Origin: Lachnospiraceae bacterium AC2029
GTDB lineage: Bacteria > Bacillota > Clostridia > Lachnospirales > Lachnospiraceae
DNA length: 64,000 nucleotides
Reading direction: 5' to 3'
Assembly (NCBI GenBank): GCA_000703065.1
Contig: JNLK01000001.1
Span: 3,494,001 to 3,558,000, forward strand
Within the stretch, counting starts at the first letter, position 1. The number at the start of each line of letters is the position of its first letter. Shown here one piece after another: positions 50,022 to 61,556 of this stretch. A program made the position numbers and the translations under genes. Below the pieces are notes generated by a model. It searched no databases and was not told the DNA's origin. It saw only the letters and a list, made by a program, of their open reading frames with translations.

Positions 50022-51008
50022 ATGGATCCGATACTGATATATCAATTAATCTATTTATCTATGACGGCTGAGGGACGGGAGGAGAGACTGTTCGGCTCAG
50101 GCAGAGAGAAGGCCTTTGATGCCTTCCTCCAAAGTACACCGGGGGACCGCTTTCCGGAGTTGTGGTTTGAAATCCCGCTTCTGGGGGACCCCTGGTTTGA
50201 TCTGCATGTTCTCACTGCGGCGAAGGATCTGCCGAAAGACAGGATCCTTCCGCAGGAACGGTGTGCCGGGTATGCGGATACATTCCAATGGTTCAGTAAG
50301 CAGGCGCATGTAAGGCAGTTGGCGCTCAGCTGGGATCTGAATACCGGAAGGGAACCGGAAGCGGCAATTCAGCTCCTTCTCTCGGGGCCTGATCCGGAAG
50401 TGGCCTGCGGTTTTCTTGAAGCGGCAGGCCGACCACAGACCAGCCCGTCTTACCGTGCGTTTCTGGAGCGCCTTCCGAAGGAGTGGTTTGCCTGTTACCT
50501 GGGTGTCTTTCCCTCCCGCCCCGGTCATCATCTCCGTGTGGAGTGTATACCGGAAGCAGAACAGCAGAAGCGTTATGTGAAGGACATTTCTGTTCTGGGG
50601 AAACAGTTGTCCGGTTTGGGCCTCGGACAGACAGAGGAGTCCATTCTGCCGGTATGTCAAATGCTGGCTGATACGCCGTTTCAACTGGAGTATCAGTTTG
50701 ACCTGAATGAAAATGGAGAAGCGGGAAGAACCTTCGGCGCCAGTCTTCGTTTTTCTGTAGGCAGGGATACCGAGGGATGGCAGGCATACGGTGATCAACC
50801 TGCGACAGAAGAACTGATGACTAAACTTGAACAGATGGGCCTTGTCGATGACCGATGGAAGGAACTTGCGAAGGTTACTTTTGCCAGGAAGCTGAAACTG
50901 TCTGAAATGGAGTGCAGGTTCTTTGCTGCGCCTGCTTTTGTCAAGCTGCGTTGGAGAGATGGGAGGCTGCTGGATGCAAAAGCCTATATCATTGCGGGAA
51001 CACTGTGA
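50022..51008 (+). CDS. Uncharacterised protein A next to the RiPP locus (paralogue of the next gene)
   Basis: The 328-residue soluble protein is not recognised. Features visible: ELWFEIPLLGDPWFDLHVL at about 46-64, SWDLNTGRE at about 102, LPKEWFACYLGVFPSR near 150, a FQLEYQFDLNENGEAG strand pair near 225 and a closing FVKLRWRDGRLLDAKAYI. The same order of motifs occurs in the next gene, so they are an old tandem duplication. AGGAGG lies 14 bases before the ATG. It precedes gene B by 35 bases and converges on the first radical SAM gene. No signal peptide, membrane helix or metal motif is seen. Confidence 0.75.
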   Translation: MDPILIYQLIYLSMTAEGREERLFGSGREKAFDAFLQSTPGDRFPELWFEIPLLGDPWFDLHVLTAAKDLPKDRILPQERCAGYADTFQWFSKQAHVRQLALSWDLNTGREPEAAIQLLLSGPDPEVACGFLEAAGRPQTSPSYRAFLERLPKEWFACYLGVFPSRPGHHLRVECIPEAEQQKRYVKDISVLGKQLSGLGLGQTEESILPVCQMLADTPFQLEYQFDLNENGEAGRTFGASLRFSVGRDTEGWQAYGDQPATEELMTKLEQMGLVDDRWKELAKVTFARKLKLSEMECRFFAAPAFVKLRWRDGRLLDAKAYIIAGTL

Positions 51009-51043
51009 ACAGGGTTTTAAAGGGAAAGGAGCAGATCAGACGA

Positions 51044-52057
51044 ATGGTCATGTTGTCATGGGAGGGAGCGATGCAGCTCCTTCTTCTGCATTCATCTGCG
51101 GACGGAAGGGAGAAGGTACTGTTTGGAGAAGATTTCCCAGGTGTAAGTGATGTATTTCCCTCAATTTGCGTGGGAGATGTCTGTCCGGATGTGTATCTGG
51201 AGTTTCCTCTGATCGGAAAGCCTTTTCTGGATCTGACGGTCCTTTACAGCGAAAATTCCGGAAAGTTCCGGCTCGATGTGCCGGAGGCTGCGGGAACGGA
51301 AGGGATAAGGGACTGGTTTGCAGGTATTTCAAAGGATTATCATAAAATTAATTTCGGATATGAGCTGGATACGGGGCGAAGGGGTGCCCCGGCAGCGGTG
51401 CATTTCCAGCCGAGAGGTTATCTCGAATTGGTAGAACCATTTTGTAAGGTTATAGGGGAGGAAGAAAAGGGAAGGCTTTATCTTTCCACGGCTGCGAAAA
51501 TGCCTCCCGGTTGGAAACTGTCCTTCTTCGGGATGTTCAGGGGAAGGAGCGGATCGCCCCTTCGCGTCTGTGGATATCTGGCTGAAGGAGAAAGAGTGGC
51601 CATAGCTGCGGACATCGAAAGGGTCCGGAGTGTATTTCAAAAGATCGGCTTCCGGGCTTTTGATGAAAAGATGCTGCATCAGATTGCTCACATCCTTTCG
51701 GAAGCCGTGGAGGGAGCGGATTTTCAGTTTGATGTCCGGCCTGACGGATCCTTTGGGGAGACCTTCGCCATCGATCTCAAACTCCGAAACAGAAGACCCG
51801 GGGAAATGAAGGAATCCTTTAACAGCGGTGATCGGGCGCCGCTTCGACAGTTGCTTGAGGACTGGAAGATCATAGACGGACGTCTGGATGCTGCGCTGGG
51901 GATGACCTTTGCCAGAAACTATCCTGTGGAGAAGCCAGATGGGAGCAAGGGCAATCTCAGCATGCTCCTGATGCCGCAGTGGATCAAGGTTCGCTGGACC
52001 AGGGGCGAACTGCAGCCGGCGAAGCTGTACTGCCTGACGCGAGCGGATCTGCTTTAG
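51044..52057 (+). CDS. Uncharacterised protein B next to the RiPP locus (paralogue of the previous gene)
   Basis: From ATG 51044 (AAAGGAG 12 bases before) the protein has 337 residues. It shares with protein A: DGREKVLFGE near the start, DVYLEFPLIGKPFLDLTVL, a YELDTGRRG segment, MPPGWKLSFFGMFRGRSG with following LRV, DFQFDVRPDGSFGETFAI, and the end WIKVRWTRGELQPAKLY. Overall similarity is low, but motif order and spacing agree over the full length. Alternating strands and Arg/Lys-rich strand ends suggest a ligand- or peptide-binding barrel; this is only an impression. It ends at a strong bidirectional terminator. Confidence 0.75.
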   Translation: MVMLSWEGAMQLLLLHSSADGREKVLFGEDFPGVSDVFPSICVGDVCPDVYLEFPLIGKPFLDLTVLYSENSGKFRLDVPEAAGTEGIRDWFAGISKDYHKINFGYELDTGRRGAPAAVHFQPRGYLELVEPFCKVIGEEEKGRLYLSTAAKMPPGWKLSFFGMFRGRSGSPLRVCGYLAEGERVAIAADIERVRSVFQKIGFRAFDEKMLHQIAHILSEAVEGADFQFDVRPDGSFGETFAIDLKLRNRRPGEMKESFNSGDRAPLRQLLEDWKIIDGRLDAALGMTFARNYPVEKPDGSKGNLSMLLMPQWIKVRWTRGELQPAKLYCLTRADLL

Positions 52058-52114
52058 ATGCAGGCCTGCACATTGGGGAAAGAACGGGCTGAAACAGTAG
52101 AAGATAAAGAGAAG

Positions 52115-52146
52115 AGGGATGGTTCCGGTCATTCGGAACCATCCCT
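52115..52146. terminator. Bidirectional terminator between protein B and radical SAM 1
   Basis: AGGGATGGTTCCG-GTCATT-CGGAACCATCCCT is a perfect 13-bp stem. The stop codon of the radical SAM gene (52129-52131) lies in its loop. Confidence 0.7.
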
Positions 52147-53481
52147 TTGCTGTTGTTTATAGAGTTCTCTGATCTTCATTACATATTTTTCAGGGCTGTC
52201 CTTATAGGGGAGACACCGTTTCTTTCCGGAAAGCCGTGCCTGCGGGCATCCGCCTGCACATAAGGGAAGCCATACACAGTTCCTGCATTCTTCGTCATGG
52301 TTACGATCGGCAGTATTCATATACCCGGTAAGGAGGTCCGGTTTAGCGGCGGTACAGATGGGATTTTCCGGGAGCCAGGTTTTGACGTTCCCGAAGGCCA
52401 GTTGTTTTTTGTCGAGACATTCCCAGCATTTATAAAGATTCCCCTCCTCATCGATCCCCATGAACCATAGCCTTTGGGCACCGCAGTATAAGCCACTGGG
52501 AAATCGAAGGGAGACGAGTTCCAGGGAGAGCTCCACATCTGCGGCATCTTCCGAACAGAGAAGCTCCACCGGATCGGATCTTTCCCCGGATACGGGATTC
52601 CCGAGTACGATGGCCGGGGACAGGTGGATGTGATTTCCTGAGTCCTGCGCCAGAGTCCGGATGTATTCCCGGAGCGGTTCGGTTTCCTGTTTGTTTCCTT
52701 CATGAACATTATGGCGAAGGATGACATTGAAGGGAAATGAGCAGTGTCGGAGATTGTCCGTGATGCGGTCGAATGTGGCTCCGCCCCCCGCAAGACGCCT
52801 TGTTGCATCGTGGGTGGCTCCGAGCCCGTCCAGAGTGATCTGACAGGTATCCACATGACACCGTTCCAGCAGGTCCACCATGTCCTGATCCAGCAGGTAT
52901 CCGTTGGTGATGATCATGGAAGTATAGGTGACATTTAACTTCTCACAAAGGGATATGATCCGTTCTGACAGGACTTCGATCACATCCGGAGCCAGCAGCG
53001 GTTCGCCGCCGAACCAGGTGATCTTCAGGAACTCTGTGTGGGCTGTAGTAAGGAGGTGCTCGATGAAGCGGATCACATTTTCCTGGACTTCCGGAGTCAT
53101 TTTCCCGGAGTTGTGTTTTTCAAAACAATACGGACAGTCAAAATTGCAGGCCATAGTGGGGCATATAGTGATATAGGCATTTTGGTGATAAGCGGAGCCA
53201 AGCCTTCCCAGTGTTTCCAGAGCGGCGTATTCATCGAAATCTGCGATGACTCCTTTTTCGGCGAATCTCCCGATCATCGGATGTGTTTCGCTTAGTTCCT
53301 CCAGGACGCTGAGAAGATACATTTCCATGGGATTGAAGGCGTTATAGGTGCCTTTGAAAAGATTCACCACCGCAGTGTTCGGACTGTCGGGGATAGAAGC
53401 GTAGAGATTGTAGCGTGACAGATGCCAGCCGGCTTCGCCGGCCGTTTTACTTTGCTCGTTCTTCCTGTCTTCTTGATTCAT
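52129..53481 (-). CDS. Radical SAM/SPASM peptide maturase 1
   Basis: From ATG 53481 (AAAGGAG upstream; the longer frame from 53565 lacks one) the enzyme has 450 residues. An N-terminal peptide-binding-type region opens with WHLSRYNLYASIPDSPNTAV, the radical SAM cluster is Cys112-x3-Cys116-x2-Cys119, GGEPLLAP follows, and the C-terminal SPASM domain has GNLYKCWECLD, then CRNCVWLPLCAGGC and a final KKRC, enough cysteines for auxiliary 4Fe-4S clusters. Such enzymes cross-link or otherwise modify RiPP precursors (thioethers, C-C bonds, epimerisation). It is transcribed away from the precursor gene 250 bases off. It is clearly paralogous to maturase 2. Confidence 0.9.
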   Translation of the reverse strand: MNQEDRKNEQSKTAGEAGWHLSRYNLYASIPDSPNTAVVNLFKGTYNAFNPMEMYLLSVLEELSETHPMIGRFAEKGVIADFDEYAALETLGRLGSAYHQNAYITICPTMACNFDCPYCFEKHNSGKMTPEVQENVIRFIEHLLTTAHTEFLKITWFGGEPLLAPDVIEVLSERIISLCEKLNVTYTSMIITNGYLLDQDMVDLLERCHVDTCQITLDGLGATHDATRRLAGGGATFDRITDNLRHCSFPFNVILRHNVHEGNKQETEPLREYIRTLAQDSGNHIHLSPAIVLGNPVSGERSDPVELLCSEDAADVELSLELVSLRFPSGLYCGAQRLWFMGIDEEGNLYKCWECLDKKQLAFGNVKTWLPENPICTAAKPDLLTGYMNTADRNHDEECRNCVWLPLCAGGCPQARLSGKKRCLPYKDSPEKYVMKIRELYKQQQRDGSE

Positions 53482-53608
53482 GATGACTCCTTTCCTGGTC
53501 AGGATCATTTCTATGATACCCTTATTATGGGCACAAAGCAAGTGAGGATTTGTGACCGACATCAACAGACGGTTAAAAGAGGGAGGGATGATCAGGGCAG
53601 GTTTTGGA

Positions 53609-53676
53609 TTGACAATTGAACAGGTTGAATGGTAGGATAGGGGGGACAGGATCGTGTTCGGACAGACAGTTGTCTG
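53609..53676 (+). promoter_or_regulatory. Candidate promoter/operator for the RiPP precursor operon
   Basis: TTGACA (53609-53614) precedes a poor -10-like TAGGAT (53633-53638). A palindrome CAGACA-GT-TGTCTG (53663-53676) lies about 57 bases before the precursor ATG. It is the only clear dyad in the divergent gap and may bind the locus regulator, which is not encoded nearby. Confidence 0.4.
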
Positions 53677-53732
53677 AATGAAAAACGATACGAAAAACTA
53701 CATTGACAAACGACATTGATGGAGGAAAGAAA

Positions 53733-53951
53733 ATGGTAGATCCCAAGTACCTTAAAAACCTGACTGACGAGCAGAAAGAGAAACTGAAGAATTGCAGAGA
53801 CGTCAATGAAGTGATGGCACTGGTTGACGAGGAAGGCTATGAAATGGATGAAGAGCAGATGGCTGCTGTCAGCGGAGGCGGTTGGAGCTGCGAAATGCCC
53901 GAGTACTGCTGCGAGGAAGGCAGAGACATTAACGGCAGGGTTAAGAAGTAA
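53733..53951 (+). CDS. RiPP precursor peptide with Nif11-like leader
   Basis: From ATG 53733 (GGAGGAAAG 5 bases before) the peptide has 72 residues. The leader (1-48/50) has the Nif11-like pattern EKLKNCRDVNEVMALVDEEG, then DEEQMAAVSGGG, ending in the double-glycine site used by C39 peptidases. The core, about 22 residues, begins GWSCEMPEYCCEEGRD and contains Cys53, Cys59 and Cys60 with several acidic residues close behind each, and a lysine-rich end. Two radical SAM/SPASM genes and an NHLP exporter flank it. Cys-to-acidic-carbon thioethers (ranthipeptide style) are a plausible but unproved modification. Confidence 0.85.
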   Translation: MVDPKYLKNLTDEQKEKLKNCRDVNEVMALVDEEGYEMDEEQMAAVSGGGWSCEMPEYCCEEGRDINGRVKK

Positions 53952-53971
53952 GACTCCGTACAGTGTGTATT

Positions 53972-55297
53972 ATGGACAGAGAGAAAAATGACCGCACGGG
54001 ATGGCGCCCATCCCGGTACAATATGTTTGCCCAAATCCCAGGTTCGAACCGCGTGGCATGTACAAATGTGTTTAACGGGAGTTTTGCGGTGTATTCAAAA
54101 GAGGAACTCTACCTGCTTTCGGAGGTAGAGTCTCTTTGTATGGATCATCCGATCATAGAGCACTTTCGAAAAAGGGGGCTCATCGTAAATTTTGATGAAT
54201 TAAAAGCCCTTGATGCTATGGGACGCCTTTCTTCTGCATCCATTCCTTTTGTCAATCTGACGATCTGTCCTACGATGGAGTGTAATTTCCGCTGTCCGTA
54301 TTGTTATGTGAGCGAAGGGAAAGTGGAAGGGATCATGAGCTCCGGGGTACAGGATGATATTCTTGCTCTTGCGGAACGAATGGTAGATGCGTCACGTGCT
54401 AAGACTCTGGCGGTCCGCTGGTATGGCGGAGAGCCGCTGCTGGCTCCTTCGGTGATCGAGAATCTTTCAACACGTCTGATGAAGCTGGCGGAATCAAGAG
54501 GGATTGGGTATAAGGCGTGGATGTTTACCAATGGCTACCTTCTGACACAGGATATCGCCGATATGCTGGGCCGCTGCAAGGTTGAAAAGGTATATATCAC
54601 ACTGGATGGGATCGGATCCGTACATGACAGGACCAGGCCCCTGGCTGGAGGGGGATCCTCATTTGACAGGATCCTGAGGAACCTTCGTGAGCAAAGACTC
54701 CCCTTTCATGTCAATGTCAGACATAATCTGCATGACGGAAACAAGGATCAGGCAGAGAAATTGAAAAAACTGATCAGACAGATTGCAGAGGAAAGCAAAA
54801 ACGATCTTCAGTACTATGGAGCCGATGTCAGAGATTATTTCAGTGAGGTGAAAGACGTTCAGATGCTTTCGGCTGAGGACTACAGTGATCTGGTGAAGGA
54901 GCGCTATGGTGGACATATCAGTCGTTCCCATGGGATTCACTGTGATGCGAATACCATGTGGTCCGTCGGCGTAAATCCAAAAGGAAGACTCTTTAAGTGT
55001 TGGGAATTTCCAAATGATGAGCAGATGAGTTTTGGTTCGGCAGCAACATGGAAACCGGAGGATCCCATCGGAACCGCGGATCAGCCGGACGAATTTACAA
55101 AGTATTTTACGGATTTTCTGCCGCTTCAGGATCCCGAGTGCCGAGAGTGTAAATGGCTGCCTGTATGTCTGGGGCAGTGTGCGGTGCTTCGTTTTCGACA
55201 TGAGGGACACTGCCTCTTTTGGAAAGGAAAAGAAGAAGAGTATGTGATTGCCATATACAGGAGGATGCTCCGTGAAAGCAAGTTGAAGAATATTTGA
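53972..55297 (+). CDS. Radical SAM/SPASM peptide maturase 2
   Basis: The 441-residue enzyme begins 20 bases after the precursor stop, so it is its operon partner; no strong ribosome binding site is seen and coupling is likely (GTG 53963 is an alternative start). Order: N-terminal region WRPSRYNMFAQIPGSNRVAC, radical SAM cluster Cys104-x3-Cys108-x2-Cys111, WYGGEPLLAPS, LDGIGSVHDRTRPL, then SPASM with GRLFKCWEFPND and CRECKWLPVCLGQC and a final HEGHC. It shares the whole layout with maturase 1 but differs in the SPASM cysteines (KCWEF versus KCWECL), so the two may catalyse different steps. Confidence 0.9.
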   Translation: MDREKNDRTGWRPSRYNMFAQIPGSNRVACTNVFNGSFAVYSKEELYLLSEVESLCMDHPIIEHFRKRGLIVNFDELKALDAMGRLSSASIPFVNLTICPTMECNFRCPYCYVSEGKVEGIMSSGVQDDILALAERMVDASRAKTLAVRWYGGEPLLAPSVIENLSTRLMKLAESRGIGYKAWMFTNGYLLTQDIADMLGRCKVEKVYITLDGIGSVHDRTRPLAGGGSSFDRILRNLREQRLPFHVNVRHNLHDGNKDQAEKLKKLIRQIAEESKNDLQYYGADVRDYFSEVKDVQMLSAEDYSDLVKERYGGHISRSHGIHCDANTMWSVGVNPKGRLFKCWEFPNDEQMSFGSAATWKPEDPIGTADQPDEFTKYFTDFLPLQDPECRECKWLPVCLGQCAVLRFRHEGHCLFWKGKEEEYVIAIYRRMLRESKLKNI

Positions 55298-55313
55298 TAC
55301 AGTCTGCTTCGGA

Positions 55314-55377
55314 TATGACAGAGGGACAGGTACAGCGTCGCATGAAAATGTAACACTGTACCTGTCCCTCTGTCATA
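55314..55377. repeat. Perfect 22-bp inverted repeat between convergent genes
   Basis: Bases 55314-55335 (TATGACAGAGGGACAGGTAC and two more) pair perfectly with 55356-55377 around a 20-base loop. There is no T run. It may act as a transcription barrier between maturase 2 and the exporter, or it is a small mobile repeat. Confidence 0.7.
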
Positions 55378-55391
55378 ACTATGTTTTGTAA

Positions 55392-57581
55392 TCAGGCTTC
55401 TTCCGTCATCTGTCGTTTAACCAGCTCAGTGAAAAGGCCGCCCTTTGCATATAATTCGTCATAGGTGCCGTCTTCTGCAACCACACCGCGATCCAGAACG
55501 ATGATCCGGGAACAGTTCCGGATGGTGGAAAGGCGGTGGGCGATCACGATCCTGGTGCAGCTCATGGCATCGAGAGAGTCGGTAACAATCTTCTGGGTGA
55601 TATTATCCAGTGCACTGGTTGCCTCGTCAAACATGATGATCTTCGGCTTCGGAGCCAGGGCTCTCGCAATCAGAATACGCTGTTTCTGACCGCCGGAGAC
55701 GCCGCCGCTTCCCTCTGAGATCAGCGTGTGCATTCCCATGGGCATCTTCTGGATATCCGCGGCCATGCCTGCTCTTTCGGCAGCGTCCCAGGCTTCATCC
55801 ACGCTGAGCCAGGGGGCGGAAATGGTGATATTGTGGTAGAGATCTCCGGTAAAGAGCTTTCCGTCCTGAAGCACGGTACCGATATGCTGCCGGAGAGACT
55901 GCAGGTCCAGACTTCCAAGATCCATGCTGTCATAGTAGACCGCACCCTGCTGCGGCGTCTGGAAGCCAAGAAGAAGCTTCAGGAGCGTGGACTTCCCGCA
56001 TCCGGATTTCCCGACTATGGCCACATACTCGCCGGAATCGATATGGAGACTGATATTGTTTATGACCGAAGGACTGTCCGGTTCATACTGAAACAGAACG
56101 TTATCCAGATCGATCCTGCCGGTGAGTGAGGAGACGGTCTTCTTTCCGATGCTTTCTTCGGGCACCTCTTTCAGGATCGGTGCACCAAGCTTCAGAGTTG
56201 GTCTGATCATGGCGATGCTCGTTCCGGAAGCGCCAAGGGCGCTGATCCCGGCCATGGCCATGGCAAAGGCGCTGGAAAATGCTGCAAACTGCGCTACGCT
56301 GACGCCGTTATTATAGGCAATGATATAGATCCACAGGGTTCCCAGAAGATGGATCGCCGTGATGAGGGGGACACGCATCGTAAAGGGAAATCGGATCGCA
56401 TAGGTCGGAGCGGTTTTTTCCGTATAGCTTTCCAGCCATTTTGCATAGGCGCGTTTTTCGCTTCCGCTGATCTTGATCTTTTGGATACCGGAGATCAGAG
56501 CATAAACCAGACCGCTGTTATTTGCATTTCCGATCATCTGTGCAGTCAGATATTTCTTCTCCTGTATGATGGTGTAAGCGAAGAGGAGAAGCTCAGCGAT
56601 GTAAATGACCAAAACAGGTAATGCCAGACAATCTGCGATGGTGAGGATCTGGACGATGTAGATCAGCGAGATAAAGACCGTCAGAAATGTTCCGAAGATC
56701 AGTTCCACCAGATTGGGGGCGATGGAATAAAGCGCCATGGTGTTCTGCGCCAACTCGCCGGCGCTTTTGTTTGCAAAGAAGGTGGCCGGAAGCCGGAGCA
56801 GTCTTGCATAGACGGCGTTCTCGCAGAGGACATCCAGTCGGTTGCTGATCCGGGACAGGGCCGAGGATTTTACGATATTCAGAAGCCATGTCCCCACTGC
56901 CATTACGACCAGGAGATTTCCCAGTGGGATCAGAAGCATCTCATCTCCTGAGGGGATCAGATTCGAGAAAGCGTAACTCGTGGCAAAGGGTGTGATCATG
57001 CCGAACAGAGTGATGAACAGGATCGAACCGCAGAGGATCAGGATGTCGCTTGGCGAAAGCTGCTTAAAAACGAACCGGATGTAATCCCCACCGGTCATGG
57101 ATCGGTTGGGAAGAGGCTTATAGAAGCAGTAGGCCAGATGCTCGAACTGATCCTTATTCTTCTTTGTGACAGGTACTTTCTCGCCGGTTTCCCGGTCGAT
57201 ATAATAGTATCCGTGGAATTTACCCGGCAGAAGAGCGATCACATCCGTTGTGTCCTTGATCTGTGCAAGAAGCGGTCCGTCCCCGTCCTTCCACCAGCGG
57301 TCGGACAGCTCCACCAGACGTTTTGTGGCGCCGGAGGCCCGGAGAGCCAGCTCGATCTGCTCATTCATGGTCCGGCATTTCCGCATTTTCTCCGGTACCG
57401 GCACTTTCAGACAGAGACAGATTTCTTCAATCTGCCGGATATTCTCCATCTCGGCAGAATCCTCTGCATAGTACTGGCCGGTTTTTCCCCTTACCGCATC
57501 AGCAAGCTTTTTCTGATTTTTAACGGCGGCGTGTTCATCACCCGCCATTCTGTTTCGGATTTGTTCTTCAAATAAATTCAT
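55392..57581 (-). CDS. NHLP bacteriocin export ABC transporter, permease/ATPase subunit
   Basis: The 729-residue protein has an N-terminal domain of about 150 residues without a C39 peptidase, six membrane helices (about 170-440) and a nucleotide-binding domain: Walker A GKSGCGKST, signature SEGSGGVSGGQKQR, Walker B IIMFDEATSAL, H-loop IVIAHRL. It fits the second ABC subunit of the NHLM/NHLP peptide export system. It begins 4 bases after the C39-ABC gene, so the two subunits are made together and probably form a heterodimer. Confidence 0.9.
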   Translation of the reverse strand: MNLFEEQIRNRMAGDEHAAVKNQKKLADAVRGKTGQYYAEDSAEMENIRQIEEICLCLKVPVPEKMRKCRTMNEQIELALRASGATKRLVELSDRWWKDGDGPLLAQIKDTTDVIALLPGKFHGYYYIDRETGEKVPVTKKNKDQFEHLAYCFYKPLPNRSMTGGDYIRFVFKQLSPSDILILCGSILFITLFGMITPFATSYAFSNLIPSGDEMLLIPLGNLLVVMAVGTWLLNIVKSSALSRISNRLDVLCENAVYARLLRLPATFFANKSAGELAQNTMALYSIAPNLVELIFGTFLTVFISLIYIVQILTIADCLALPVLVIYIAELLLFAYTIIQEKKYLTAQMIGNANNSGLVYALISGIQKIKISGSEKRAYAKWLESYTEKTAPTYAIRFPFTMRVPLITAIHLLGTLWIYIIAYNNGVSVAQFAAFSSAFAMAMAGISALGASGTSIAMIRPTLKLGAPILKEVPEESIGKKTVSSLTGRIDLDNVLFQYEPDSPSVINNISLHIDSGEYVAIVGKSGCGKSTLLKLLLGFQTPQQGAVYYDSMDLGSLDLQSLRQHIGTVLQDGKLFTGDLYHNITISAPWLSVDEAWDAAERAGMAADIQKMPMGMHTLISEGSGGVSGGQKQRILIARALAPKPKIIMFDEATSALDNITQKIVTDSLDAMSCTRIVIAHRLSTIRNCSRIIVLDRGVVAEDGTYDELYAKGGLFTELVKRQMTEEA

Positions 57582-57585
57582 AGCT

Positions 57586-59748
57586 TTACTGTACTGTAAC
57601 CAGCTGCCGGTACAGTCCTTCCTCCTTCAGAAGTTCCTCATGGGTGCCGCGCTGGGCGATCACGCCCTTGTCAAGAACGATGATCTCATCGCATTCCCGG
57701 ATCGTGGAGAGCCGGTGGGCGATGATGATACTGGTGATCCCGCGGTCGTGAAGATAATTGGAAATTTCATATTCCGTCCGTGCATCCAGCGCTGAAGTGG
57801 CCTCATCCATAATGATGATGGAGGGATCATTTGCGAGGACACGGGCGATCTCCAAACGCTGCCGTTGACCGCCGGACAGATTCTTCCCGTTTTCGGAAAG
57901 AAGGAAGTCGTAACCGCCTTTTTTGGCCAGTATATCCTTATGGATGGAAGCATCCCGGGCTGCCAGTACCACATCGAAATCTTCGATGGTCTTGTCCCAC
58001 ATCCGGATATTGTTTGCTATGGTGTCTTTAAATAAAGTCACATCCTGGTCCACCATGGCAACGGAGCCGTTGAAGATGGGTTTCGGGATCTCGGAGATCG
58101 GCTTTCCGTCGAACAGGATCTCACCCTTCCAGGGCTTGTAAAGTCCGGTCAGAAGCTTGGCAAAGGAGGATTTTCCGCAGCCGGATCCTCCGACGATGGC
58201 AATGCGCTTTCCCGGTGTGATGGTCAGATTAAAGTCATTGATGATCGGTGCGACCAGTGGATTATATCCGAAGGTGACATTTTTGATCTCAATCTTTCCG
58301 GAAAGCTTTTCGGCGTTCTCAAGTTCTTCGGAAGTAAAATCCTCTTTCGCGCTTATGTCTTCCGGATAGATCATGACATCGTGGATGCGTTCGATGGATG
58401 ATTTCATCTCCTGGAAGGTCTGACCTGCATTGATCAGGCTGTTTACCGGAGAGACAAATGCAGCCATACAGCCCTGGAAGGCCAGAAACATACCGGCAGT
58501 AAAATGATTGTTCATGATGCTCCAGTAAGCAGTGAGCATGATGGCCACGGATGAAAGCTGCTGCAGGAGTGTCGGGAGTGTACCCAGAAAACGGTTGGTT
58601 TTGCCGAATTTAACTTTTGACTTGGCTACTGCAGCATGATAGCCGGACCACATTTCCAGGAATCCGCTTTCCGCACCGGATGCCTTGATGGTTTCCACCA
58701 TATTGATACCGGATACGGTGGCTACCGCCAGCATGGCCTGATCGCGCATCTGGGTCCTGGATATCTCCGTTCTTTTGTTGGAGATCAGGCGGGCAAGGAA
58801 CAGATTGATGATGACGGTAGCGATTCCGATCAGCGTCAGCGGTACACTCAGCTGGAACATGACTACAAGATAGAAGACCAGCAGAACCGAGTTGACGATC
58901 ACCGGGGCCATCTTACCTACAAGAGCACTGGCAACGGAGTCATTGGAGGTGGCGCGGTTTGCCAGATCCCCGGCGCTTCTCTGGGAGAAGAAGGCCATGG
59001 GCATACGGAATACGTGCTTCATGAAAGCCGCATTTGCCGTAACGGCCAGCTTTCCCGTGGCCCTTCGGGTATAGATCAGATTGATGATACCGGCTGTAAG
59101 CTGGAACAGGATCACTGCCAGGAAAATCCATAGCAGACCCTGATACCAGGAAGGTGTCTTTCTGGATAGGATATTATCGGTAAATACACGGGAGATCACG
59201 GGAATGAGCGTGCCTGCGATCATGGACAGGGCGCTTGTGATCATGATCAGAAACAGAGTGGCTCCGTTTCCATGTATGCGTTCCTTCAGAAAGGCAAAGG
59301 TACTGGCCGGCTTTCCGCCTGGCTCAAAGCCCTCGTCCTTTTCAAGACAAAGGCACACATTGGAATAGGAACGCTTGAAGTCTTCCATCGGCAGGCGGAC
59401 ACGTCCCATAGCCGGATCGTTCAGGTAGGCATAGCCGTTTTTAAATCCGTCCAATACCACAAAGTGGCATCTGTTCCAGAAAATGATGCAGGGAAAGGAG
59501 GCTTTCTCCTGAAGTTTTTCTGATTTAACCATGTACGCCTTATATTTCAGGCCATATCCCTTAGCCGCTTTTGCGATACTGAGAACATTGCTTCCGTCAC
59601 GGGATACTCCGCAGGCGATACGCACCTGTTCCAGCGGAACCCATTTTTTGTAATAGGCCAGGATCATGGAGAGAGAGGCTGCTCCGCATTCGAGTGCCTC
59701 CATCTGGAGGATGACCGGCACCCTTACCGGTTTCGTATTTGAAGCCAT
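57586..59748 (-). CDS. NHLP bacteriocin export ABC transporter with C39 peptidase
   Basis: The 720-residue protein begins with a C39 peptidase domain: Cys21 in EALECGAASLSMIL, His95 in RCHFVVLDG and Asp111 in LNDPA. Six membrane helices follow (about 165-440), then the ATPase with Walker A GGSGCGKSS, signature NLSGGQRQRLEIARVL and Walker B IIIMDEATSAL. It should cut the precursor after its double glycine while exporting the core. It lies 13 bases downstream of the HlyD-like gene. It is close in type to NHLM family peptidase-permease-ATPases. Confidence 0.92.
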   Translation of the reverse strand: MASNTKPVRVPVILQMEALECGAASLSMILAYYKKWVPLEQVRIACGVSRDGSNVLSIAKAAKGYGLKYKAYMVKSEKLQEKASFPCIIFWNRCHFVVLDGFKNGYAYLNDPAMGRVRLPMEDFKRSYSNVCLCLEKDEGFEPGGKPASTFAFLKERIHGNGATLFLIMITSALSMIAGTLIPVISRVFTDNILSRKTPSWYQGLLWIFLAVILFQLTAGIINLIYTRRATGKLAVTANAAFMKHVFRMPMAFFSQRSAGDLANRATSNDSVASALVGKMAPVIVNSVLLVFYLVVMFQLSVPLTLIGIATVIINLFLARLISNKRTEISRTQMRDQAMLAVATVSGINMVETIKASGAESGFLEMWSGYHAAVAKSKVKFGKTNRFLGTLPTLLQQLSSVAIMLTAYWSIMNNHFTAGMFLAFQGCMAAFVSPVNSLINAGQTFQEMKSSIERIHDVMIYPEDISAKEDFTSEELENAEKLSGKIEIKNVTFGYNPLVAPIINDFNLTITPGKRIAIVGGSGCGKSSFAKLLTGLYKPWKGEILFDGKPISEIPKPIFNGSVAMVDQDVTLFKDTIANNIRMWDKTIEDFDVVLAARDASIHKDILAKKGGYDFLLSENGKNLSGGQRQRLEIARVLANDPSIIIMDEATSALDARTEYEISNYLHDRGITSIIIAHRLSTIRECDEIIVLDKGVIAQRGTHEELLKEEGLYRQLVTVQ

Positions 59749-59761
59749 AGTCGTTCCTCCG

Positions 59762-60340
59762 TTATTTCATAAGAAGTGAGATGGGGCGGACTTCACCGGT
59801 GGTGATGGTGGCTTCCGCGATCTGGTTCTGGTATTTGGACAGATCCTCGCCGGTTTCGATAAACAGGGCATAGCTGTAGGTCTTATCTGCCAGAAGATAA
59901 TCAAATGCCCAGTCACTGTAGGAATAATCCTGGATTTCCTTTTCTGCTTCCTTCAGCAGTTCCTTGGCTTCTTCTACGGAAACCGGCATCTCCGTTGCAG
60001 CGATCACTTCGCCGGAGAAGGTTTCTCCGTCAGGCATTTTAAGGCTTACTACAGTCCCTTTCGGGAGGGCACCGGTATTTTTCTTGACATCCACGAAGCA
60101 GAGTGTGAGATCCGCATTCCTGCTTCCTACTGTTACGACGCTGTATTCGGTGATATTTACCGGGATCCTTCCGACGAATCCCCAAATGAAAAGAGCAACA
60201 ACGACCATGATCAGTGCGGCGATCAGGAAATAACCTCCCGCGCTTCCTGTCCTGATATACTCATTCAGGTTTTCCGCTGTCTGCTCTTCGCCGGCATTTC
60301 CCTGGCGAAATATGCTTTTGTTTTTGCTTTCGTCCGACAT
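59762..60340 (-). CDS. NHLM system secretion protein, short HlyD-like
   Basis: The 192-residue protein has an N-terminal cytosolic part, a single membrane helix (about 34-56, GYFLIAALIMVVVALFIWGF) and an extracytoplasmic part with lipoyl/barrel-like strands (GTVVSLKMPDGETFSGEVIA) ending GEVRPISLLMK. Usual NHLM HlyD proteins are longer and carry a coiled coil; this one lacks it, which fits a Gram-positive cell with no outer membrane. It heads the three-gene export operon; the region upstream (60341-60553) is AT-rich with TATAAT-like elements but no clear single promoter. Confidence 0.8.
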   Translation of the reverse strand: MSDESKNKSIFRQGNAGEEQTAENLNEYIRTGSAGGYFLIAALIMVVVALFIWGFVGRIPVNITEYSVVTVGSRNADLTLCFVDVKKNTGALPKGTVVSLKMPDGETFSGEVIAATEMPVSVEEAKELLKEAEKEIQDYSYSDWAFDYLLADKTYSYALFIETGEDLSKYQNQIAEATITTGEVRPISLLMK

Positions 60341-60553
60341 ATGTATCCCCCGTGAATGTTAACTGTTATTGTGAATTAACGTTGTTTTCTATTGCTGATT
60401 CATGGTAAAATTGTATAAATTGTATAATTAGATAACATAATAATTGTAACATGTTTACATTTGAATGGTCAAGGAATAGCGCGTTAACGACGTGGTGGTT
60501 TTTGCGGCATATGGACGATGTGTTCGCCTATTTTCGGAGAGGAGGAAAGACAC

Positions 60554-60649
60554 GTGGACAGCAAATGGCATCGTTCCCGCTACAATCTTTTTGCCAAGGT
60601 TCCCGGCACCGATCGGATCGCAGAAGTTAGGGTGACTGAAAGGCAGTGA
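60554..60649 (+). pseudogene. N-terminal remnant of a third radical SAM peptide maturase
   Basis: After GGAGAGGAGG a GTG starts the frame MDSKWHRSRYNLFAKVPGTD, clearly the same N-terminus as maturase 1 (WHLSRYNLYASIPDS) and 2 (WRPSRYNMFAQIPGS). It ends after 31 residues, where the sequence becomes the 3' end of the AEC transporter gene. A deletion has removed the rest. So the locus once had at least three such enzymes, the third divergent from the export operon. Confidence 0.75.
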
Positions 60650-61556
60650 ATAGAATCATGAGCAGTGTGATGGTGACCATGGATACGATCGTCGTTACGG
60701 CGATGCCCTTTGAAAGAGCACCGGTATCTTCCCCCATTTTTTCTGCCTGGATCAGCGGAAGATTCCCGACAGGCATCATGGCCATCAGGGAAAAACCGAG
60801 AACCATGATATCATCGCAGCCTACTGCACGAAGCAGGAAGAATACAGCGATCGGGATCAGGATCATTCTCAGTGCGATAAACCCCCACAACCGGAGATTT
60901 TTGAAGCCTTCGAGTACCTTGGACCTGGCGATGGAGACTCCGAGAAGGGTCATGGACAGAAATACGGTTGCATTTCCTATGTAGGATACACTGCTGCTGA
61001 TAATGACCGGAGGTTTATAATCAAACCAGATGATGATCAGGCTGACGATAGCCAGGATCGTTCCGGGGCTGATGATCTTTTTCAGATTCATCTTTTCCCG
61101 TCCTTCCGAGAGAACTGTGATCCCGTGTGTATAGAATAAAAGGGCATATAAAACGTTGCAGATCACAACATACAGCATGGCCTTCTCCGGAAGAAGAGCC
61201 TTCGTCACCGGAATGCCGATAAATCCGATATTGGTATAAACCGTCATCATGGTGTAATATCTGCGTTCTTTTTTATCTGCACGAACAAGATGGGGAAGAA
61301 GAGCGCCTAGAAGCACCAGTCCCACATAGAACAGGAATCCGACAAGGATCGCGATCAAAAGCTCCTTGTGACTTGCCGTCACATTTCCTGACAATGCAGA
61401 TGACAGGATCATTGCGGGATTACAGATATCAATGATGATCGTGGATATCCGCTGCGATACCGTCTGATCGATCACCTTTTTTCTGTAAAGGTAGATTCCT
61501 ACTGAGACCAGTATCATAATTACACACATTTGTTGGATTACAACTAAACTACTCAT
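60627..61556 (-). CDS. AEC-family transporter (auxin efflux carrier fold)
   Basis: The 309-residue protein has about ten membrane helices in two halves (IIIDICNPAMILSSALSGNV; GFIGIPVTKALL; SLMAMMPVGNLPLIQAEKMG), with the broken helices typical of AEC/BART-type carriers. Bacterial members carry malate, malonate or other acids. Its start overlaps the glucuronidase stop by four bases, so it may import the sugar acid or its glucuronide conjugate or export an aglycone; inference. Confidence 0.87.
   Translation of the reverse strand: MSSLVVIQQMCVIMILVSVGIYLYRKKVIDQTVSQRISTIIIDICNPAMILSSALSGNVTASHKELLIAILVGFLFYVGLVLLGALLPHLVRADKKERRYYTMMTVYTNIGFIGIPVTKALLPEKAMLYVVICNVLYALLFYTHGITVLSEGREKMNLKKIISPGTILAIVSLIIIWFDYKPPVIISSSVSYIGNATVFLSMTLLGVSIARSKVLEGFKNLRLWGFIALRMILIPIAVFFLLRAVGCDDIMVLGFSLMAMMPVGNLPLIQAEKMGEDTGALSKGIAVTTIVSMVTITLLMILFTAFQSP

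Follow-up and report, generated by a model that had tools for sequence, protein, structure and literature searches.

Among ribosomally synthesized and post-translationally modified peptides (RiPPs), prenylation of the peptide is known for cyanobactins, lasso peptides and lanthipeptides (PMC12715784). For the MppE/MppM/MppC system of Moorena producens PAL, which yields a prenylated lanthipeptide, the published account reports that MppC, an alpha-beta-beta-alpha (ABBA) enzyme, adds a geranyl group to a single Trp of a peptide whose leader is of the Nif11 type, that the leader is required, and that an L(X)4L motif in the MppE leader is a docking site of the prenyltransferase and of C39 domains; the cyanobactin prenyltransferases, in the same account, act once the leader has been removed (PMC12715784). 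Some clusters for YcaO-TfuA thioamidated RiPPs are annotated with an indole prenyltransferase (PMC8120280). Here we describe a locus in a stretch of 64,000 nucleotides, hereafter the window, from the genome of Lachnospiraceae bacterium AC2029, which is a single contig of 3.86 Mb. With one double-glycine precursor, two divergent SPASM paralogues of the radical S-adenosylmethionine (SAM) type and an NHLP-type exporter, it is a genuine RiPP locus, and it also encodes two barrel proteins, PT-a and PT-b, that are probably ABBA-barrel prenyltransferases, judging by their structural models. Our preferred reading, which we hold to be reasonably probable, is that the locus is a cluster for a prenylated (lipidated) radical SAM RiPP.

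The resemblance to the Mpp system lies in a Nif11-type leader, an ABBA-type prenyltransferase and a Trp-bearing core, but the ring-forming enzyme of that system is a lanthionine synthetase (PMC12715784), whereas two radical SAM/SPASM enzymes are present here. With the cyanobactin prenyltransferases KgpF, LimF and PagF (PMC11002830, PMC12715784), the likeness is ABBA-fold peptide prenylation; in contrast, PT-a matches no NCBIfam or Pfam model, and none of the 39 members of the barrel-family alignment A2 has a match to either library better than E 0.04. This alignment comprises 39 of 42 barrel-family frames and omits one partial frame, one fused C-terminal domain and one chimeric fragment. For the YcaO-TfuA clusters, a figure legend already records prenyltransferase annotations next to RiPP precursors, and Nif11-related precursors as well (PMC8120280), but their chemistry is of the YcaO-TfuA type, and a Pfam and NCBIfam scan of eight window proteins detected no TfuA or YcaO.

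The assignment of PT-a and PT-b follows from their predicted fold. The two proteins are paralogues (27% identity, E 2e-29), and their AlphaFold2 models have a predicted local distance difference test score (pLDDT) of 92.3 and a predicted template modeling score (pTM) of 0.90 for PT-a, built from 39 sequences, and of 93.9 and 0.92 for PT-b, built from 35. Both are ten-stranded ABBA barrels in which five beta-beta units lie between helices. When the models were compared with the PDB by Foldseek, all 50 matches listed for each were aromatic ABBA/DMATS-type prenyltransferases, with best E values of 2.2e-5 (PT-a) and 1.7e-7 (PT-b), out of totals of 393 and 603 matches at E 10. The likeness to the DMATS/NphB-type aromatic prenyltransferases (IptA, PriB, CymD, 5-DMATS and NphB) is one of predicted fold, at 6-16% identity, and PT-a and PT-b adjoin RiPP genes rather than small-molecule pathways. 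Ten residues are invariant in the 39 aligned members (E50, P52, D60, R166, R172, D276, R278, K308, K320 and Y322 in PT-a numbering), and several of the conserved basic and Tyr residues lie on barrel strands of the PT-a model.

The most telling comparison is between the window and two related loci, L015 and L026, which have the same exporter, maturases and type of core but come from genomes in which a genome-wide search detected no barrel gene. Their cores, CGKENCCNQDS (L015) and GCGKDKCCDQNAINAQKNGG (L026), belong to close leaders and share with the window core the three Cys of a C-x(4,5)-CC pattern, yet they contain neither Trp nor Tyr; the window, by contrast, has PT-a and PT-b, and its core carries Trp51 and Tyr58 beside Cys53, Cys59 and Cys60. 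The same tendency is seen more widely. Once repeated cores, cores of more than 36 or fewer than 4 residues and frames lacking GG are excluded, all 30 cores within 1.5 kb of a barrel gene contain Trp or Tyr (Trp in 23 of them), as against 14 of 18 (13 with Trp) where the stretch has no barrel gene (p 0.016 for Trp or Tyr). By genome, among 36 cores drawn from the clade loci and the window, Trp or Tyr is present in 31/32 where the gene occurs and in 1/4 where it does not, with a one-sided p of 0.0022 that ignores relatedness; for Trp alone the figures are 25/32 and 1/4 (p 0.057, likewise ignoring relatedness).

Barrel genes are also repeatedly linked to the other components. In loci chosen by their maturase, with the window left out of the counts, 19 of 50 maturase genes of the clade to which the window enzymes belong have a barrel gene at a distance of at most 3 kb. 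Where at least 3 kb of sequence is available on both sides, 12 of 31 do, all within 300 bases, and in one of the 12 (L040) the barrel protein is only a C-terminal piece fused to the first ATP-binding cassette (ABC) protein of the exporter, ABC1. Fifteen of the 20 genomes behind maturase loci that lack a nearby barrel gene carry one elsewhere, according to a whole-genome search. In the opposite direction, 43 stretches were examined, 36 of them fetched from barrel matches in genomes of the order to which an Olsenella isolate belongs. Because two genomes in which the maturase had already been found supply four of the stretches (L162-L165), the remaining 39 are the fairer set; six of the 43 overlap loci found through the maturase. 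Among the 39 barrel-chosen loci, a clade maturase is present in 7, a Nif11-type precursor no more than 1.5 kb away in 12 and an NHLP ABC1 in 5, and 21 show at least one of the three. The barrel gene itself occurs in 4 of 61 same-genus genomes, including that of the window, and the order of the Olsenella isolate has it in 24 of 297 genomes. Barrel genes of two clades, represented by PT-a and PT-b, are found together in the window and, among 65 other stretches, in 19, often side by side (L032 and L144 in this count are the same contig).

We propose the following pathway. The precursor leader would recruit the enzymes; the SPASM enzymes would oxidatively crosslink Cys53, Cys59 and Cys60, with thioethers to neighboring carbon atoms as the likeliest bonds; PT-a and/or PT-b would prenylate Trp51 and/or Tyr58 while the precursor still has its leader; and the C39 domain of ABC1 would cleave after Gly48-Gly49 during NHLP-type export of the product. 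PT-a and PT-b may each modify an acceptor of their own or work together as a heteromer. Gene content, the double-glycine site, the exporter type, the cysteines of the radical SAM and SPASM domains, the predicted ABBA fold of PT-a and PT-b and the repeated linkage of their family to a maturase clade and Nif11-type precursors are computed directly. The activity of PT-a and PT-b as prenyltransferases on this peptide, their acceptor and donor, the formation of thioethers and the sequence of the steps are inferred. Prenylation of Trp51 or Tyr58 is suggested by analogy with the leader-requiring Trp geranylation by MppC. The features of the locus are collected in Table 1.

Table 1. Features of the RiPP locus, with positions in the window
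Feature	Position	Strand	Basis
PT-a, predicted ABBA-barrel prenyltransferase, 328 aa	50022..51008	+	AlphaFold2 model, Foldseek; without Pfam or NCBIfam name
PT-b, predicted ABBA-barrel prenyltransferase, 337 aa, paralogue of PT-a	51044..52057	+	AlphaFold2 model, Foldseek
Maturase 1, radical SAM/SPASM, about 450 aa (start codon inferred)	52129..53481	-	PF04055, TIGR04085, cysteines
RiPP precursor, 72 aa; leader 1-49 ending SGG, core 50-72 GWSCEMPEYCCEEGRDINGRVKK	53733..53951	+	
Maturase 2, radical SAM/SPASM, about 441 aa (start codon inferred)	53972..55297	+	PF04055
ABC2, NHLP-type export ABC permease/ATPase	55392..57581	-	TIGR03797
ABC1, NHLP-type export ABC with N-terminal C39 peptidase	57586..59748	-	TIGR03796, PF03412
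Short HlyD-like exporter subunit, 192 aa	59762..60340	-	TIGR03794, N-terminal third of model
Remnant of a third W-x2-SRYN maturase, N-terminal 31 codons	60554..60649	+	Clade hidden Markov model (HMM)

The genes lie in the order of the table; maturases 1 and 2 are divergent and flank the precursor on either side, while PT-a and PT-b converge with maturase 1. All genes are full length and free of stops, except the maturase remnant, which was recognized by the clade HMM (E 8.6e-6 among 780 window open reading frames) and abuts a gene at 60627-61556. A preliminary description of the locus had proposed a dedicated NHLP-type exporter, and a C39-ABC protein, a second ABC protein and a short HlyD are indeed all found. 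Its idea of two enzymes acting on one core proved incomplete: PT-a and PT-b, being predicted aromatic or peptide prenyltransferases, bring the candidate modifying enzymes of the interval to four, and neither this pair of paralogues nor the maturase remnant had been described. The exporter resembles NHLP-type systems to differing degrees. ABC1 passes the TIGR03796 cut-off (893 bits against 853.3) and matches PF03412, whereas ABC2 narrowly misses that of TIGR03797 (695.3 bits against 709.4), and the HlyD, a short form, covers the N-terminal third of the TIGR03794 model and scores far under its cut-off (32.9 bits against 156.2).

The single precursor is as the preliminary description had it in length, in its double-glycine leader and in its three Cys, and the stated core of 22 residues is obtained if cleavage follows GGG; after GG, where the leader ends AAVSGG, the core has 23 residues. 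Its description as Nif11-like was not confirmed and is a borderline case: the profile search gave 22.7 bits for PF07862 (cut-off 23.8) and 16.0 for TIGR03798 (cut-off 32.3), both below threshold, while the double-glycine leader is encoded beside maturation and C39 export genes, as is expected of the Nif11 type. At E 0.001 the precursor is the only PF07862 match in the genome. With a leader HMM built from the window precursor and its relative in L012, 76 small frames were detected in related loci, of which 68 had E <1e-5. The leader has MDEEQM, an M-x4-M motif, before the GG, which resembles the L(X)4L motif reported for the MppE leader (PMC12715784). Near-identical cores, MMWGDVCVGVACKVCRGYKGCK(V/C)Y, are joined to differing leaders in three Coriobacterial records (L016 9600-9809, L017 5753-5962 and L025 2163-2372). 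Other Coriobacterial small frames, ending EL(A/S)DD(D/E)LE(M/L)LAAA (L028 3773-3973 and L020 4589-4831, both on the minus strand), possibly represent another precursor-like family. We rejected a rule that a precursor stands beside every relative, since in many loci (for example L023, L028, L032, L034 and L160) none was found close to the maturase or barrel genes; precursors may lie elsewhere in those genomes.

Maturases 1 and 2 are full-length paralogues (41-43% identity), as had been described. Both match PF04055 (62.9 and 61.8 bits; cut-off 29.5); maturase 1 also matches the SPASM model TIGR04085 (49.6 bits; cut-off 27), which is not among the matches listed for maturase 2. The CxxxCxxC cysteines are at 113/117/120 in maturase 1 and 105/109/112 in maturase 2, and seven SPASM cysteines follow with identical spacing (334/353/400/403/409/413/424 and 325/344/391/394/400/404/415). 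The claim that the two enzymes differ in their auxiliary-cluster cysteines was therefore mistaken, and the cysteines were ruled out as a sign of two chemistries; maturase 1 has extra cysteines, two of which (356 and 377) fall between SPASM cysteines. The W-x2-SRYN start by which the pair had been characterized is present in both but is not peculiar to them: W-x2-S-x-YN marks a wider clade, of which 50 genes were counted in the fetched loci, and S-x-YN is found at the N terminus of many more distant maturases. The view that the pair falls outside any named class is borne out within NCBIfam, where, among the best 25 of 78 and the best 25 of 73 matching families for maturases 1 and 2, respectively, neither reaches the cut-off of a named maturase family. 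The best match is TIGR04463, whose cut-off is 525 bits and to which the two score 181.9 and 204.8; for PapB (NF047865) the scores are 119.6 and 104 bits against 340. The pair resembles ranthipeptide and sactipeptide maturases (PapB NF047865, SCIFF TIGR03974, TIGR04463 and Clo7bot TIGR04334) in combining a radical SAM domain with a seven-Cys SPASM domain and in its association with Cys-rich cores, but scores far under the cut-off of each family among the matches listed, and export here is NHLP-type.

The maturase clade, defined by more than 380 bits to a three-sequence HMM, which excludes the contig-edge partial maturase of L015, was drawn from the best 80 of 561 relatives. It occurs in Bacillota, Actinomycetota and Chloroflexota, with many members, to judge by record titles, from rumen and gut metagenome assemblies. 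A scan of genome contigs with a single protein gave no match; an alignment-based scan did. At E 1e-40 matches occur in 3 of 61 same-genus genomes and in 2 of 397 genomes of a family sample, the window genome being included in both. In a quick tree maturase 2 groups with the L015 and L026 maturases (Shimodaira-Hasegawa-like approximate likelihood ratio test 99), while maturase 1 obtained no placement, so the second maturases of the three loci are not shown to be orthologous. The window cluster is not a chance assembly, because its arrangement or content recurs: in L012/L015, from the same genus, a partial maturase at the contig edge is followed through the same divergent layout by a precursor, a second maturase gene, HlyD, ABC1 and ABC2, and L026 brings together the exporter, a precursor and two clade maturases.

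Several related loci add variety to this picture. L026 (7801-9189) and L012 (7450-8841) contain, after the maturase and exporter genes, a third gene for a radical SAM/SPASM protein, different in type and not found in the window locus; its 463-residue product is below each NCBIfam cut-off among the matches listed. In Selenomonas and Lachnospiraceae (L063, L064, L066, L067 and L070), a related maturase with an [LM]-x2-SRYN start is accompanied by between one and four barrel genes and by several precursors of the Nif11 type, whose cores include SCAWFYP, RDCGWYYD and ELCWEVCHSPSTY. Cores of the form (S/A)WY(N/D)CMNETW adjoin barrel genes in L150-L153 and L180, stretches with no clade maturase, and four of these five precursors are beside a pair of barrel genes from both clades. 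In L040 (1037-3529) one open frame contains most of the NHLP ABC1 and the C-terminal end of a barrel protein, the result of a deletion or an assembly error, and in L030 (7552-9804) a barrel-family domain is C-terminal in a 750-residue frame whose N-terminal part has a putatively HD-like stretch rich in histidine and aspartate.

A number of observations weigh against our reading of the cluster as one for a prenylated peptide. Prenyl transfer by PT-a and PT-b is itself a prediction from modeled structures, whose Foldseek matches have template modeling scores of about 0.4-0.6 and root-mean-square deviations of about 6-11 Å. At the level of sequence, an hhalign comparison of the barrel family with PF11991 proteins gave 4.3% probability, too weak for an assignment to DMATS, which we rejected, and a search of PDB sequences gave E 0.16 at best, with matches that are not prenyltransferases by name. 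Maturase 1 sits between the PT-a/PT-b pair and the precursor, 19 of the 31 well-flanked clade maturases have no nearby barrel gene, and 18 of the 39 barrel-chosen loci show neither maturase nor precursor nor exporter. Trp alone does not separate cores near barrel genes from those away from them (23/30 against 13/18, p 0.74); a Trp-only rule for the barrel enzymes was accordingly rejected, and only Trp or Tyr separates the groups, in small numbers. The gene-absent group consists of 4 cores from 3 draft genomes, so that incompleteness and relatedness matter, and exceptions exist on both sides: one core of L042, where the barrel gene is absent, has Trp and Tyr, and the core of L077, where it is present, has neither.

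Part of this evidence would suit a thioether-type cluster, like those for ranthipeptides or sactipeptides, that depends on its two radical SAM enzymes alone while PT-a and PT-b serve another substrate or pathway. L015 and L026 seem to manage with such a set, barrel genes are missing near most well-flanked maturases, and the convergence of PT-a and PT-b with maturase 1 leaves no obvious single operon with the precursor; but the tight and repeated linkage of barrel genes to clade maturases and Nif11-type precursors, together with the Trp and Tyr in the genome's one PF07862 Nif11-type precursor, makes this explanation rather unlikely. That PT-a and PT-b have the ABBA fold without being prenyltransferases, and serve to bind the peptide or to carry some other group, as partners of the maturases might, we regard as improbable. 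Homology to known prenyltransferases could not be demonstrated by sequence, and pairing of genes from the two barrel clades could mean that one partner is non-catalytic; the conserved basic and Tyr residues, several of them on barrel strands, count against this reading, and barrel genes also adjoin Trp-bearing Nif11-type precursors in stretches with no clade maturase (for example L147, L150-L153 and L180).

The crosslinks are a separate matter. Maturases that form carbon-carbon or other links of the cyclophane type, or that epimerize, in place of Cys thioethers are a possibility we take seriously while thinking it unlikely. The NCBIfam matches listed spread across thioether, cyclophane and other maturases, the named families all below cut-off, and a Cys is found within two residues of Trp in 18 of 26 Trp-bearing cores, so that Trp could be a crosslink partner. 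Thioethers are favored by the abundance of Cys, which makes up 15% of core residues as against 2.7% in the enzymes, by the three Cys common to the window, L015 and L026 cores, and by the best solved relative of the maturases by sequence, 5wgg, which we take to be the thioether-forming CteB. Decay of the cluster, with no product made, would account for the truncated third maturase and for the small number of same-genus genomes with a maturase, but it is very improbable given that the remaining genes are intact and that L015 and L026 have kept the precursor, the maturases and the exporter.

Weak homologues of the barrel family occur in cyanobacteria. When 243 genomes of the order of the cyanobacterium Okeania were searched with the barrel profile, three proteins matched weakly (E 2e-4 to 5e-3). 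They are proteins of about 350 residues that share R-P-x-x-P-x-R and AKxYL-like stretches with the family and have no Pfam or NCBIfam name; a search of five genomes with alignment A2 gave no match. When the three were aligned with 32 of the 39 A2 members (alignment A3), the residues E, D, R, R, K, K and Y were still invariant. One cyanobacterial homologue adjoins a Nif11 peptide (L194, 8505-10006), and another (L195, 8471-17788) is encoded with a Trp halogenase, a 2-oxoglutarate-dependent oxygenase, a radical SAM/SPASM protein, TfuA and a Nif11 precursor with the core FYYGNSRGSSCSQW. These neighborhoods suggest that the homologues may be general modifiers of aromatic residues in Nif11-type RiPPs. 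The components of the window locus are of recognized types. None of the libraries searched has a name for the barrel family, and no pairing of it with radical SAM maturases was met in the surveyed literature. That survey consisted mostly of titles and abstracts, with preprints and most subscription papers outside its scope, and the absence from it of any report joining prenylation with radical SAM crosslinking is thus weak evidence. By title, none of the papers found on rumen, Nif11 or radical SAM/SPASM RiPPs concerned these clusters, and TIGR04463 was mentioned in none.

The locus may represent a class of lipidated RiPPs that has yet to be described and that extends through Coriobacteria, Lachnospiraceae, Selenomonads and other bacteria of the rumen and gut. 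In such a class the ABBA prenyltransferase family found here, often as a pair of genes from its two clades, and radical SAM/SPASM enzymes would act on the same Nif11-type precursor to give a Cys-crosslinked, Trp- or Tyr-prenylated exported peptide; we judge the case for it, its spread included, to be evenly poised. If the proposal is true, tens of unannotated genes of gut bacteria would encode new, probably leader-guided peptide prenyltransferases, acting on short Trp- and Cys-containing cores that are easily expressed; the pairing of prenylation with radical SAM chemistry would be new for RiPPs; and gut anaerobes would be candidate exporters of lipidated peptides.

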